Positions 2,377 through 11,858 of a stretch of DNA of 64,000 bases are shown here, in pieces. The stretch lies in contig JAEUHQ010000065.1 of assembly GCA_016794565.1 (NCBI GenBank), positions 1 through 64,000 of the forward strand, written 5' to 3'. This stretch comes from Planctomycetota bacterium. GTDB lineage: Bacteria; Planctomycetota; UBA1135; UBA2386. Below the pieces are notes generated by a model. It made no database searches and had not been told where the DNA came from. It was given only the letters and a program-made list of their open reading frames with translations. The stretch's first letter is position 1. Each line of letters begins with the position of its first letter. Both the position numbers and the translations under genes were made by a program.

Positions 2377-2916
2377 ATGCACGACTTGCTCGACGCACCG
2401 CTCCGCGACACCGAAGGACGCCCCTCGTCGTTGCGTGCATGGCTCGGTCCGCGCACGACCGTCGTGGTCTTCCTTCGCCACTTCGGTTGACTGTTCTGTC
2501 GCGAGCGCGCGGCGCAGTTGCGCCGGCAGGAGAACGAGATCGCCGCAGCCGGAGCGAACCTCGTGTTCGTGGGCACGGGTACGCCGGCGATGGCCGCCGA
2601 CTTCGCGCGAACGCACGCGGGGCCGCACCCCGTGCTGAGCGACCCGGCGCGGGCGACCTTCGCCGCGGCAGGGATGCGACGTTCGGTGTGGGCGACGCTG
2701 CACTGGCGCCTCCTCGGAAACGCGTGGCGCGCGCTGCGGGCCGGGTTCCGCCAGGGCCGTGTGCAGGGCGACGCGTGGCAGCAGGGCGGGGCCATCGTGC
2801 TCGACAGAGAGGGTGCGGTCGTGTACCGGCAGGTCGATCGGGCCGGCGGGGATCCGCTCGACGTCGGCGCCATCGTGGCGAGCGTGGGGGCGACGATCGC
2901 CGCGGGCCCGGCGTGA
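2377..2916 (+). CDS. Predicted selenoprotein, AhpC/TSA-like (Prx-like 2) with UxxC motif
   Basis: A 179-residue reading frame from ATG 2377 to the stop at 2914-2916 with one in-frame TGA at 2488-2490. The residues around it read VVVFLRHFG-(TGA)-LFCRERAAQL, the redox motif of the AhpC/TSA-like Prx-like 2 family, where the TGA position is normally cysteine (CxxC). Reading TGA as selenocysteine gives U38-L-F-C41. Homology continues in the same frame with no shift (NLVFVGTG, then a DP-containing segment and AIVLDREG), as expected for a thioredoxin fold of about 180 aa. A hairpin starting 5 nt after the TGA fits a bacterial SECIS. The likely role is a thiol/selenol-dependent peroxide or disulfide reductase. 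The alternatives are a nonsense mutation of a Cys codon or a sequencing error. No selenocysteine machinery lies in the window. Confidence 0.78.
2496..2529 (+). promoter_or_regulatory. SECIS-like hairpin after in-frame UGA
   Basis: Lower stem CUGUC (2496-2500) pairs with GGCAG (2525-2529), with one G-U pair. Upper stem GGCGC (2511-2515) pairs with GCGCC (2520-2524). The apical loop is AGUU, and a 10-nt unpaired segment lies on the 5' side. The loop begins 25 nt after the UGA (2488-2490) and contains G followed by U, features expected of bacterial SECIS elements recognised by SelB. The structure was found by eye; no folding energy was computed. Confidence 0.5.
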
Positions 2917-4840: not shown

Positions 4841-7270
4841 ATGGTGGAGACCGCGACACAGGCGGCCGGTGACGGGCCCGATCCGAGCGGCGATGCCGAG
4901 CTGCCGGCGCGCATCGGGCCCTTCCGCATCCTCGAACGCATCGGCGCCGGCGGCATGGGTGTGGTGTTCCTCGCCGAACGTCGCGAGCCGATCGAGCAGC
5001 GCGTCGCGCTGAAGGTCATCCGCACGGACCGCCTCGATCGCACGTACCGCGCGCGGTTCGCGATGGAGCAGACGGCGCTCGCGCGCATGGACCATCCCAA
5101 CATCGCGCGCCTGCTCGACGCGGGTCTCGACGACGGCCAGTCGTGGTTCGCCATGGAGTACGTGCCCGGCACGCCGTTGTCGGACTACTGCCGCGAGCAC
5201 CGGCTGTCGATCGAGGCGCGCCTGCGGTTGTTCGCGCAGGTGTGCGACGGCGTGCAGCATGCGCACATCAAGGGCATCCTGCATCGCGACCTGAAGCCCG
5301 CGAACGTGCTCGTGCGCGAGATCGACGGCCGGCCGATCGCGAAGATCATCGACTTCGGCCTCGCACAGCCGACGGATCCCCTGCAAGTCCGCGCGACGCT
5401 GCACGAGTCGATGCGCCAGATCGTCGGCACGTTCGCCTACATGAGTCCGGAACAGGCGGAGCGCACCGAAGGCGATCTCGACACTCGCACGGACGTGTAC
5501 TCGCTCGGAGTCGTGCTGTACGAACTGCTGACCGGCGTCGTGCCCCTCGACGTCGACGAGGCGCAGCGGCGCGGCCTCGCGTGGATCGGCGACTTCCTCC
5601 GCGAGCACGAGCCGAAGAAGCCGAGCACGCGCCTGTCGACGATGGGGGAGCGATTGACGAGCGCCGCCGCCGAACGCGGCACGTCGCCGCAGCGCCTGCG
5701 CGCCAGCGTCCGCGGCGACCTCGACTGGGTCACGATGAAGGCGCTCGAGCGCGACCGGCAGCGCCGCTACCCGACCGTCAGCGAGCTGGGCCGCGACATC
5801 GAGCGCTACCTGCGCCATCAGCCCGTCGAGGCCGGCCCGCCGGGCGGGTGGTACCGCGCGAAGAAGTGGCTGCGGCGGCATGCGCGGGGTGTGGCGGTGG
5901 CGGGGGTGGGGGTGGTCCTCGCGCTCGTGGCCGTCGGCACTTGGGTCCAGTTGTCTCGCGCCGAGCGACGCCACCTGCGCGAACTCGCGCTCGACCTCGA
6001 GATCATCGCAGGACCACGGTTGCTCGCCGAATGGGATCGCTTCGGTCTCGACCTCCGCCAGCATGGCGAGATCCTCATGTACGCGGCGACCACCAAGGCG
6101 ATCCTGGCCAACGTGCCCGAGCAGGCCGCGCGTGCGGTGCCCGACAGCGACCCGAGGGCGAAGGCGATTGCGGAGCACACCCGAACGGTTGCGCCTGCGT
6201 TGCAGGCCAAGTCGGCTGCCGCCGATGTCCTGCTCGCGCGGTTCGAAGCCGTGGAACAGGCCATGCGAGGCCTGGCGGCGGAATGGTCCGACTGCGTCGA
6301 CGGCATCCGGCAAGACGAGCGCTACGCGATCGACTCCCTGTCACCCCAGTTCGGCCTCGCCCCATTGGGCAAGGATCCGGTTTCGGGGTTGTACGAGTTC
6401 GCCTGCATCGCGAGTGGGAAGGTGCCTGGACGTGATCAAGAAGGGCGGCTCGTGCTGGACGTCGACAGTGCAATCGTCCTGGTGCTCCTTCCCGGCGGGA
6501 AGTTCACGATGGGCAGCCCGGATGCGGATCCGTCCAGCGACGAGGAGGTCGCGGCTGCCGAACGACCCTGTCACGAGGTCACCGTCGCGCCGTTCTTCCT
6601 CGGCAAGGGCGAACTGACCTTCCTCCAGTGTGTCGCGCTCGAAGACGACCCCAGCTATTGGAATCTCGTGCGGGTCGGTGCCGCGGTGCAGAAGGCCCGT
6701 GAGAAGAACGTCGTGTGTCCCACGCCGGCTGGTCTTTCGCGGGGCCTGCCGGTGACCAACATCGACTGGTACACCGCCGACCGCACGTTGCGCGCCGTCG
6801 GGCTGCGGCACCCGAGCGAGGCCGAATGGGAGTACGCCGCGCGGGCCGGCACGACCGGGCCCTGGTCGTGCTCCGTCGCGACCCTCCGGCAGCATGCCAA
6901 CCTGCCCGACATCACGGCGCGCGCGGTCTTTCGCGTCGAAGAAACGGATCCACGCTGGCTCGCCGAGTCGGACGGGCACCCCGCAGTCGCACCGATCCTG
7001 TCGTTCGCCCCGAACGCCTTCGGCTTGCACGACATGCACGGCAATGCCGCGGAATGGTGCGCCGATCGGTACGCCAACTACGGCGGGCTGGATCCGTCTC
7101 TCCAGTTCCTTCCCGACACGCGCGTGGTGCGCGGCGGCAGTTTCGCGCGGCGTGTCCAGGCCTCGCGGTCGGCCGCGCGGGCCCAATTGCCGCCAATGGC
7201 CGTGGCTCGGGACGTCGGATGCCGGGCCGCGCGAGCGCTCGAGGGATACGAGCCGCGAGCGGTGAAGTGA
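4841..7270 (+). CDS. Membrane Ser/Thr protein kinase fused to an FGE/SUMF1-like domain
   Basis: An 809-aa three-part protein. Residues about 26-330 are a Hanks-type kinase: glycine loop IGAGGMGVV (34-42), K58, HRDLKPAN (D150), DFG (171-173) and an activation-segment end MSPEQ. These residues support catalytic activity. One membrane helix (about 349-368) follows. After a helical linker, residues about 545-800 are an FGE-sulfatase/SUMF1-like domain with GGKFTMGSP, PSEAEWEYAARAG, HDMHGNAAEWC and VVRGGSF. The cysteine pair of true formylglycine-generating enzymes is not present at the end of the domain, so it is more likely a sensor or binding module outside the cytoplasm than an enzyme. Kinase-FGE fusions are known in planctomycetes. 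Its stop directly abuts that of the convergent lipoprotein gene. Confidence 0.92.
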   Translation: MVETATQAAGDGPDPSGDAELPARIGPFRILERIGAGGMGVVFLAERREPIEQRVALKVIRTDRLDRTYRARFAMEQTALARMDHPNIARLLDAGLDDGQSWFAMEYVPGTPLSDYCREHRLSIEARLRLFAQVCDGVQHAHIKGILHRDLKPANVLVREIDGRPIAKIIDFGLAQPTDPLQVRATLHESMRQIVGTFAYMSPEQAERTEGDLDTRTDVYSLGVVLYELLTGVVPLDVDEAQRRGLAWIGDFLREHEPKKPSTRLSTMGERLTSAAAERGTSPQRLRASVRGDLDWVTMKALERDRQRRYPTVSELGRDIERYLRHQPVEAGPPGGWYRAKKWLRRHARGVAVAGVGVVLALVAVGTWVQLSRAERRHLRELALDLEIIAGPRLLAEWDRFGLDLRQHGEILMYAATTKAILANVPEQAARAVPDSDPRAKAIAEHTRTVAPALQAKSAAADVLLARFEAVEQAMRGLAAEWSDCVDGIRQDERYAIDSLSPQFGLAPLGKDPVSGLYEFACIASGKVPGRDQEGRLVLDVDSAIVLVLLPGGKFTMGSPDADPSSDEEVAAAERPCHEVTVAPFFLGKGELTFLQCVALEDDPSYWNLVRVGAAVQKAREKNVVCPTPAGLSRGLPVTNIDWYTADRTLRAVGLRHPSEAEWEYAARAGTTGPWSCSVATLRQHANLPDITARAVFRVEETDPRWLAESDGHPAVAPILSFAPNAFGLHDMHGNAAEWCADRYANYGGLDPSLQFLPDTRVVRGGSFARRVQASRSAARAQLPPMAVARDVGCRAARALEGYEPRAVK

Positions 7271-7901: not shown

Positions 7902-10900
7902 TCAGGGGCGGACCGTCGCGTCGGCGACCTGATCGCATCCCCTGTCGGCTTCGTCGCTCTGGCGGCGGGCGCGCCTCAGACCGACGACAGCTTCGGGGCG
8001 AGCATACTGCTCGCCCGCCCAACCCGTGACGAACCTTCCGCCGCGCACGTCGCCGCGCAGTTCCATCGCTCGGAGCGTGCGCAGCAGGAGACGCCAGGGC
8101 ACCGGCACCTTCTCGGCGAGGAGCAGCGGATGCGAAACCACGCCGAAGCGCGCGAGCAGCGAGCGTGCGCAGAGTTCGATGGCGGCGTCGCTGGCGCGCG
8201 TGTCGTTCGGCGGCAGCGGCAGCAGGCTCCAGCGGCCGACGGCGAACAGCGGGAACGCGCGCTGGCTCGGCGCGATCGCGAGCTGGCGTATCGTCGCGAA
8301 CGAGTCGCACGTCGCGAGACCGCTGCCGACGAGTTCGCCGAGTCCTTCTTCCAGATGGCTCGGCAGCAGGCGGCTCTGCGTCTGCAGGTCGGTGGGGAAC
8401 AGGGCGCCGCGCCGTGCCAGCAGTTCGTGCAGCGTGCGCGCGGCGGCGCCGAGTTCGGGCGGCTGGGCGCGTTCGAGCGGCAGCTCGAGCCACAGCGCCA
8501 GATCCTGCCGCGGCACGATCGAAAGCGGCAACCGACTCAGCGGGCCGCGCCACGGTCCCCACAGTCGCAGCCAGGCGAACTCGCCCGAAAGCGTCGCCTG
8601 GTCCAGCCATTCGCGGCGGTAATCGGCGATTCGCGGCGGCAGCACGTCGTATTCCCACGCCTCGACCGGGAACGCCGCCGATGCCCACTGCACCAGCGTC
8701 TCGTGCAGGCCGCGCGGCCCCGTGCGTCGGGTCGGCTCCGTCTGGCCCTGCCAGCCGGCGAGGAACTCGGCGAACACGGCCTGGCTCACCGGCTGCACGG
8801 CGGCGCGCAGACGATCGAGCATCCGGTTGCGCACCCGGGCGAGCAGCCGGCGATGCGCCCACACTTCGCGTCCTGCGAGCCGCGCGCGCATCGCGGTGCC
8901 TTCGGCTTCGAGCGCGCGCAGCGCTTCCTGGTCCTCGAAGGGCAGTTGGTCGGCCTGCACCGGGATCACCGCTTCGAGGCGGCCGCGCCAGCCCGCGAGC
9001 CGTTCGTGGCTCGCTTCCGCGGCGAACCAGCGGTCGCCGTCGCGCAGAGCGCGTCCGTCGGCCGCGAGCGTCGCGAGCCACTCGCGCCACGCAGGCTCCA
9101 CCTCGCCTTCGTGCAGCCAGCCCATCCAGCCGAGCGCTTCGTGCAGTTCCGCGGCCGAGCGCGGATCGGGCCAGCACTCGCCCTGCACCTGCTCGACGGC
9201 GTCGGGGTCCAGTTCGCTCGCTGCGTCGTGGCTCGCGGCCGTGCGGCGTGCGCCGCGCTGCGCCGACGTCACGGCCTGCGTGCGGCGCTCTTCGAGCGGA
9301 GCATCGTCGAGGAACGAGTAGGGCATCGCGTGCAGGATGCTCTCGGCGAACGGCGACGGTCCGGAGTGGTCGACTTCGCGCAGGCCGATCGTGCCGCCGC
9401 GAATGCGCGCGAGCAGCGTCAGCATGCCGTCGAGGTCCATCGCTTCGTGCAGCGTGTCGTGCACCGTCTGACCGACGACCGGGTGATCCTCGGGCACCTC
9501 GATCGGACCGGGCGGCAGCGTCTCGGGACACGCCTGCGCCTGCGGGAACGCCGCGGCGAGCGCGTCGTCGGCGCGGAAACGCAGCAGCGGTGCCGGCACC
9601 TTGCGCCCCGAGCGGAAGCGTTCGACGAGCAGCGAACGCGCGACGTTCCACCGCCAGCGCGCCTGGAACATCGGCGCCGGCAGCATCGACTGGACGAGCA
9701 CGTCCTTCGCGGTGTCGGGGTGCAGGTAGTTCCACACGTCGCCGAGCTCGAAGCTGTGCATCGGACCCAGCGAGATGAGCAGCGCGTCCTCGTTCGCGGC
9801 GGCCTGCAGCTCGTAGCCGAAACCGACGCAGAAGCGATTTCGCAGCGCGAGGCCGCGCGCGCGGTTGATGCGGCTGCCGAACGGGCTGTGCAGGATCAGC
9901 TGCTGGCCGCCGGTCTCGTCGAAGAAGCGCTCGAGCACGAGCTGGTCGCGGCTCGGCATCGCGCCGAGTGCTTCGGCGCCCGAGCGCAGGTACTCCGCGA
10001 GCTGGTCGGCAGCCGCCGGACGCAGGCCGCACTCCTGCTGCAGCCACTCGTTCGACGTTCCGTGCACGCGGACGCGGGCGATCGCGGCGCAGAGTTCGTC
10101 CGAGCGCGACGGACCCTCGGCGATCCAGAACGGCAGCGACGGCGGCACGCCGTGCGCGTCGGCGACACGCAACTGGCCGCTGCCGATGCGGCGGATCTGC
10201 CAGCTCGTGGTCCCGAGCTGGAACACGTCGCCGACCGACGACTCGATCGCGAAGTCCTCGTGCACCGTGCCGACCGGGGTGTCGTCGTGGTCGAGCACGA
10301 CCTGCCAATCCGCGACGTCGGGAATCGCGCCGCCGCACGTCACCGCGGTGAGACGCGCGCGGCGGGTGCTGCGCACCGTGCGATGGATCGAGTCGCGGTG
10401 CAGCAGCGCGGCGCGGCCGCCGGCGTGCATCGCCAGCACCGCGTCGAAGCGGTCGCGGGACAGCTCACGGAACGGGAATGCGCGGCGCACGGCGGCGAAC
10501 AGTTCGTCCTCGACGAACGTGTCGTCGCAGCACGCGGCGACCACCTGCTGCGCGAGGATGTCGAGCGGATGGAGCGGCTGCGTCGTGCGGTCGAGGTCGC
10601 CGTGGCGCACCGCGAACAGGAGCCCGGCGCTCGCGAGCAGTTCGTCGCGGGTGAGCGGGAAGAGCCGGCCCTTCGGCAGGCGGCCGATGCCGTGACCGGC
10701 GCGGCCGATGCGTTGCAGGAACGCGGCGATCGACGGAGTCGGGCCGATCTGCAGCACGAGGTCCACGTCGCCGATGTCGATGCCGAGCTCGAGCGAACTC
10801 GTCGCGACGAGCGCTTTCAGCTGCCCGTGCTTCAGCCGCTGCTCGGCGTCGAGGCGCCGCGCCTTCGACAGCGACCCGTGGTGGCTCGTCACGAGGTCCT

Positions 10901-11858
10901 TGCCGACGACGTCGGCGAGGCGTGCGGCGACGCGTTCGGCCATCTTGCGCGTGTTCGCGAACACGAGCGTCGTCCGGTGCCCGGCGATCAGCGCGCTCAT
11001 GCGCGCGAACACTTCGTTCCAGATCTCGCCGCTGCAGATCGTGTCGAGCGGAGCGCCGGGCACCTCGACCTCGAGGTCCATCGCGCGCGAGTGGCCGATG
11101 TCGACGATCGTGCACGGCCGGTCGGTTCCCGCGAGCAGGCCGGCGGTCGCTTCGATCGGGCGCTGCGTCGCCGACAGGCCGATACGCTGCAGGTTCCCGC
11201 CGTGCTGGCGCACGAGCAGGTCGAGCCGCTCGCACGTGAGGGCGAAGTGCGAGCCGCGCTTGCTGCCGGCGAGTGCGTGGATCTCGTCGACGATCAGCGT
11301 GCGCGCGGTCGCGAGCATCTTCCTGCCGCGCATCGTCGTCAGCAGGATGTAGAGCGACTCCGGCGTCGTGACGAGGATGTGCGGCGGAGTGCGCGTCATC
11401 GCGGCGCGTTCGTTCGCCGGCGTGTCGCCCGAACGGACGGTCACTCGCACTTCCGGCAGCGACGGGTCGAGGCTGCGCAGTTCGGCCAGCGGCTGCTGCA
11501 GGTTCTTTTGCACGTCGTTGGCCAGCGCGCGCAGCGGCGACACGTAGACGACGTGCAGTTCGTCGCGCAGCGCCGCACCCTTCTGCAGCAGTGCGTCGAG
11601 CGAGTGCAGGAACGCGGCGAGCGTCTTGCCCGATCCGGTCGGCGCTGCGATGAGGACGTGTTCGCCCGCGGCGATCCGCGGCCAGCCGGCGACCTGCGGC
11701 GGCGACGGGGCGCCGAGGCGGTCGCGGAACCAACGCGCGACAGTGGGGTGGAACGTGGGCAGCAAGGGCGGTCGGTCCGATCGGGCCGCGCAGCATACCG
11801 TTCGCCGCGGCGGCCGCGTTCCGCCGGGCTCAGCGTGCCGGCGCGAGAACGGGCGCAC
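7902..11858 (-). CDS. lhr: Lhr-type DEAD/DEAH ATP-dependent helicase
   Basis: Up to 1318 aa with the order of an Lhr family superfamily 2 helicase. Motifs are PSPPQ (Q-motif-like), APTGSGKT (residues 72-79), TTPESLY, VDEIH (motif II, 190-194), LSAT (motif III), TSSLELGID (motif V) and QRIGRAGH (motif VI), followed by the winged-helix and the long Lhr-specific C-terminal half. Lhr proteins translocate on single-stranded DNA and unwind DNA/RNA hybrids, with roles in repair. The longest form starts at GTG 11858, overlapping the upstream gene by 29 nt. Family N-termini usually start near FHPTVARWF, so TTG 11765 (1287 aa) is a credible alternative. No good ribosome binding site supports either. 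Confidence 0.9.
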   Translation of the reverse strand: MRPFSRRHAEPGGTRPPRRTVCCAARSDRPPLLPTFHPTVARWFRDRLGAPSPPQVAGWPRIAAGEHVLIAAPTGSGKTLAAFLHSLDALLQKGAALRDELHVVYVSPLRALANDVQKNLQQPLAELRSLDPSLPEVRVTVRSGDTPANERAAMTRTPPHILVTTPESLYILLTTMRGRKMLATARTLIVDEIHALAGSKRGSHFALTCERLDLLVRQHGGNLQRIGLSATQRPIEATAGLLAGTDRPCTIVDIGHSRAMDLEVEVPGAPLDTICSGEIWNEVFARMSALIAGHRTTLVFANTRKMAERVAARLADVVGKDLVTSHHGSLSKARRLDAEQRLKHGQLKALVATSSLELGIDIGDVDLVLQIGPTPSIAAFLQRIGRAGHGIGRLPKGRLFPLTRDELLASAGLLFAVRHGDLDRTTQPLHPLDILAQQVVAACCDDTFVEDELFAAVRRAFPFRELSRDRFDAVLAMHAGGRAALLHRDSIHRTVRSTRRARLTAVTCGGAIPDVADWQVVLDHDDTPVGTVHEDFAIESSVGDVFQLGTTSWQIRRIGSGQLRVADAHGVPPSLPFWIAEGPSRSDELCAAIARVRVHGTSNEWLQQECGLRPAAADQLAEYLRSGAEALGAMPSRDQLVLERFFDETGGQQLILHSPFGSRINRARGLALRNRFCVGFGYELQAAANEDALLISLGPMHSFELGDVWNYLHPDTAKDVLVQSMLPAPMFQARWRWNVARSLLVERFRSGRKVPAPLLRFRADDALAAAFPQAQACPETLPPGPIEVPEDHPVVGQTVHDTLHEAMDLDGMLTLLARIRGGTIGLREVDHSGPSPFAESILHAMPYSFLDDAPLEERRTQAVTSAQRGARRTAASHDAASELDPDAVEQVQGECWPDPRSAAELHEALGWMGWLHEGEVEPAWREWLATLAADGRALRDGDRWFAAEASHERLAGWRGRLEAVIPVQADQLPFEDQEALRALEAEGTAMRARLAGREVWAHRRLLARVRNRMLDRLRAAVQPVSQAVFAEFLAGWQGQTEPTRRTGPRGLHETLVQWASAAFPVEAWEYDVLPPRIADYRREWLDQATLSGEFAWLRLWGPWRGPLSRLPLSIVPRQDLALWLELPLERAQPPELGAAARTLHELLARRGALFPTDLQTQSRLLPSHLEEGLGELVGSGLATCDSFATIRQLAIAPSQRAFPLFAVGRWSLLPLPPNDTRASDAAIELCARSLLARFGVVSHPLLLAEKVPVPWRLLLRTLRAMELRGDVRGGRFVTGWAGEQYARPEAVVGLRRARRQSDEADRGCDQVADATVRP

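Follow-up and report, generated by a model that had tools for sequence, protein, structure and literature searches.

A predicted selenocysteine-containing Prx-like 2 protein with a UxxC motif in a planctomycete genome

The gene and its interrupted reading frame

The window analyzed here is a stretch of 64,000 nucleotides from the draft genome of a planctomycete (5.07 Mb in 223 contigs, 93% complete). Four features on its forward strand are central to the argument.

2377..2916, + strand: predicted gene for a 179-residue selenoprotein in the AhpC/TSA_2 (Prx-like 2) family, closing TGA at 2914-2916 (translation, profile matches and homologues)
2488..2490, + strand: in-frame TGA, predicted to be read as selenocysteine (U38) (TGA or Cys at this column in 59/59 homologous rows)
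2497..2499, + strand: TGT codon of C41, likely the resolving cysteine of U-x-x-C (the residue is Cys in 36 of the 40 Sec rows; three have Thr and one has Ser)
2511..2524, + strand: putative bacterial SECIS hairpin, GGCGC-AGUU-GCGCC, with the loop AGUU at 2516-2519 (covariation in 19 relatives, RNAalifold consensus and biased synonymous codons)

Codon 38 of 2377-2916 is an in-frame TGA, located between VVVFLRHFG and LFCRERAAQL in the translation; it is the only interruption, and the frame beyond it is open to the closing TGA at 2914-2916. The read-through product of 179 residues matches Pfam AhpC-TSA_2 (PF13911; E=2.9e-19, 69.9 bits, cut-off 27), AhpC-TSA (E=3.3e-10, residues 7-104) and Redoxin (E=9.2e-8); each of the latter two matches begins before the TGA and ends after it. 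A reading made from the sequence alone had placed this lone TGA in an otherwise continuous frame, at the first redox cysteine of the family's CxxC pair and with homology continuing in the same frame on either side. All of this was borne out: the coordinates are exact by translation, the assignment to U38-L-F-C41 is exact and homologues have Cys at the column, and the span of the AhpC-TSA match demonstrates homology on both sides of the TGA. The same reading expected a standard gene caller to truncate the gene and leave the part after the TGA, and the mechanical list of open reading frames indeed gives only 2518..2916 (132 aa, with a TTG start).

With Cys written for Sec, residues 5-169 of the 179, nearly the whole length, match the bacterial SelL-related redox protein NCBIfam NF040769 (SelL_rel_redox) at 121.2 bits (cut-off 120); the score was 112.3 in a whole-genome scan with the stop read through. 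A score just at the cut-off suggests that the window protein is a divergent member. Members of NF040769 that have TGA or Cys at the U38 column occur throughout Planctomycetota. A GC3-based scan of the window for further TGA-interrupted genes yielded nothing convincing; it has little power, as the known TGA-interrupted gene was also missed.

Downstream, the window encodes a single protein in which a protein kinase domain is fused to an FGE-sulfatase (formylglycine-generating-enzyme-like) domain (4841-7267, + strand) and, about 5 kb from the Prx-like 2 gene, a large Lhr-type helicase (7902-11858, - strand). In two homologous loci (L036 and L041), the frame continues beyond the selenoprotein or Cys homologue into sequence that looks like the antisense strand of this helicase region, which hints at a partly conserved neighborhood.

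Conservation of the active-site column

The U38 column was read in 59 homologous rows, drawn from genomes of the organism's own family and order, from a phylum-wide sample and from one record labeled Deltaproteobacteria (Myxococcota on the tree). It contains TGA in 40 rows, a Cys codon in 19 and nothing else, a pattern that chance would not produce and that bears out the alignment check proposed in the sequence-only reading. The motifs are UxxC (36 rows), UxxT (3), UxxS (1) and CxxC (19). Within the own family and order, a match was found in 40/61 genomes, and most close homologues have exactly one TGA. In L045, L056, L057 and L082, the second active-site residue is Thr or, in L082, Ser, so that the resolving cysteine is absent though Sec is kept.

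Decay elsewhere in the gene would point to a true stop, the TGA then marking either a pseudogene or a short peptide followed by a restart product from 2518. The open reading frame at 2518-2916 with its TTG start does exist, but its product would be without the first strand and the entire redox motif. The TGA moreover recurs at a single position in 40 distinct copies that show no decay elsewhere: no second stop was found in the conserved span of any of the 59 rows. Purifying selection acts on both sides of the TGA. Compared with five relatives, dN is 0.19-0.43 and dS is 0.64-1.10, values that are alike before and after the TGA, and dN below dS on both sides indicates that selection holds the two halves as one protein. 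A true stop is therefore very improbable.

A putative SECIS hairpin

In the first search, the codons following the TGA were often CAG TTG in Sec rows, and the window sequence here forms a putative hairpin; its loop, AGUU, includes a G and is located 26-29 nt downstream of the UGA. Bacterial SECIS elements are hairpins that closely follow the UGA and have a G in a small apical loop (PMC1088965), and the putative hairpin is in line with this layout. Its alignment was confined to 19 Sec rows in which the CAG-TTG motif is present, picked after inspection; seven distant Sec rows (L049, L052, L053 and L055-L058), in which the CAG-TTG or loop motif is absent, were omitted. In the 19 rows, 6/9 pairs of the hairpin around AGUU have changed on both sides, 75.4% of cells are paired versus 65.2% when shuffled, and covariation is 0.307 versus 0.146, with 0/500 shuffles as high. 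A shifted register abolishes this signal, and RNAalifold recovers the same hairpin unprompted.

Synonymous codon choice points the same way. The Leu codon of the loop is TTG in 20/24 rows versus 10% of Leu codons elsewhere in the same genes, and GGT immediately precedes the TGA in 22/26 rows versus 13% of Gly codons, although the p-values of these biases are overstated because the rows are related. Cys rows of the same family are without the hairpin sequence. Single-sequence folding of 2485-2535 gave a stability that is not exceptional (z -0.23), so the case for the hairpin comes from covariation and codon bias. Scanning the window against Rfam at gathering thresholds gave no match, which leaves the hairpin without Rfam family support.

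The codon bias also bears on whether a sequencing or assembly error turned TGC or TGT into TGA. The source is a draft genome in 223 contigs, which would allow for such an error, but the SECIS-type bias is present in TGA copies and missing in Cys copies, and the same TGA occurs in many independently assembled genomes, which refute this explanation; we give it practically no chance.

Selenocysteine machinery

The genome contains the full bacterial selenocysteine kit, as predicted if this organism uses selenocysteine; a search for selA, selB, selD and a UGA-decoding tRNA-Sec found all four. The tRNA-Sec scores 76.5 bits (cut-off 47) and is the sole hit above the cut-off; ARAGORN confirms it with anticodon tca (UCA). 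SelA, SelB and SelD all score above curated cut-offs, and selA adjoins selD on contig C35. The selD gene has an in-frame TGA of its own near the N-terminus of the product (MADHPDKRLTRYASGSGUAAKLPPGSLGQVLQKL, at GSGUAAK; L018, G000:C35:10536-11453, minus strand), which is the site of the N-terminal catalytic Sec in Sec-containing SelD proteins. Together with the Prx-like 2 gene, it brings the selenoproteins of the organism to at least two as judged from sequence.

This machinery also argues against an organism-wide reassignment of UGA (for example, to Trp) in place of local recoding. Nothing was found in favor of reassignment; TGA terminates the window gene and most homologues, and homologues without the in-frame TGA have Cys at the column, never Trp. 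We consider it extremely unlikely. UGA38 of the Prx-like 2 gene is almost certainly read as selenocysteine at the active site, a reading based on the machinery genes, the hairpin and conservation, from which we infer that it occurs in the cell. With very high confidence, 2377-2916 is predicted to encode an AhpC/TSA_2 (Prx-like 2) selenoprotein, from a family with the thioredoxin fold, in which Sec is inserted at UGA38 via SelB and the downstream hairpin.

Distribution of Sec and Cys forms

The selenocysteine trait is nearly universal in this planctomycete order: tRNA-Sec was found in 54/61 and SelA in 59/61 genomes of the own family and order. Four own-family genomes with a TGA copy gave no tRNA-Sec hit (G014, G016, G029 and G030); all are incomplete MAGs and all have SelA. 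Conversely, five own-family genomes retain tRNA-Sec but have a Cys copy (G004, G013, G015, G017 and G025, with L041, L047, L042, L048 and L044, respectively), indicating that Cys can replace Sec without loss of the trait.

Among genomes of the phylum sample with a match at E<=1e-20, tRNA-Sec is present in 27/30 with the TGA form versus 3/17 with the Cys form (Fisher p=1e-6, with kinship among genomes uncorrected), and the three TGA-form genomes without it are MAGs that are 67-88% complete. On a 58-row tree containing no eukaryotic sequences, the Sec/Cys label changes at least 6 times, and well supported branches require 4 of these changes; because the tree is rooted arbitrarily, it does not give the direction of change.

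Fold and proposed mechanism

An AlphaFold2 model (pLDDT 96.1, pTM 0.92) has the Prx fold, with a helix from residue 39, directly after U38. The best PDB structure match to the model is human prostamide/PGF synthase in its C44S/C47S form (E=5.2e-11); peroxiredoxin Q/BCP and AhpE rank next. Prostamide/PGF synthase was also the top PDB hit in a sequence search, and its C44/C47 pair aligns with U38/C41.

We propose the following mechanism. At UGA38, SelB carrying Sec-tRNA(UCA) would bind the hairpin just downstream, and Sec would be inserted rather than translation being terminated. The fold places U38 at the N-terminus of the helix that begins with residue 39. From there its selenolate would attack the substrate, a peroxide or a disulfide; resolution by C41 would form an Se-S bond, to be reduced again by a donor of the thioredoxin type. 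Peroxidase or disulfide reductase chemistry of U38/C41 would be the likely outcome, judging from fold and family.

Relation to known selenoproteins

Sec machinery and selenoproteins have already been described in Planctomycetes (PMC4807772), and UxxC is known in other Prx-like families (PMC2398784). An AhpC/TSA family selenoprotein (pfam13911/cd02970) of the Olavius symbiont type, with UxxS, is also already among predicted bacterial selenoproteins (PMC9312934; PMC13188914). The window protein belongs to the same Pfam family and likewise has Sec in the redox motif, but its motif is UxxC in place of the catalogued UxxS, with UxxT and one UxxS (L082) among its relatives. UxxC for pfam13911 in bacteria is absent from the 2026 table (PMC13188914), where UxxS stands alone. 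Bacterial members of this Pfam family with Sec are thus already known, and what the window gene would add is the UxxC form.

The sequence-only reading named SelL as a related Sec protein. Eukaryotic SelL carries a pair of Sec residues, spaced two apart (PMC3316567). The comparison holds in that SelL is likewise Prx-like with Sec in the redox motif, but its motif is UxxU, against one Sec and one Cys in the window protein, and UxxU was found neither in the window nor in any of the 59 rows. In the two rows with a double TGA (L035 and L036), the second is an ordinary stop at the C-terminal end. SelU has a Prx-like 2 domain with Sec and Cys forms, and prostamide/PGF synthase belongs to its SelU3 lineage (PMC3473315). 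The window protein shares the Prx-like 2 domain with the SelU/prostamide-PGF synthase (PRXL2) family, at about 20% identity, and like SelU it has a single Sec; it appears nearer to SelU than to SelL, since the closest solved fold is that of the human SelU3 enzyme. The eukaryotic SECIS is located in the 3' UTR, in contrast to the putative SECIS of the window gene, which is within the coding sequence a short way past the UGA.

A broader proposal is tentative, and we hold it to be rather doubtful: that a largely uncatalogued UxxC/UxxT branch of Prx-like 2 proteins, truncated by annotation, extends across the phylum, with Sec prevailing and perhaps ancestral and with repeated Sec/Cys switches, and that a bacterial Sec form could be the ancestor of eukaryotic SelU. 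For the gene described here, an active-site selenoprotein would be truncated by ordinary gene calling. Its UxxC form would extend a bacterial catalogue that so far holds UxxS only for this Pfam family, and the protein may represent a prokaryotic counterpart to eukaryotic SelU.
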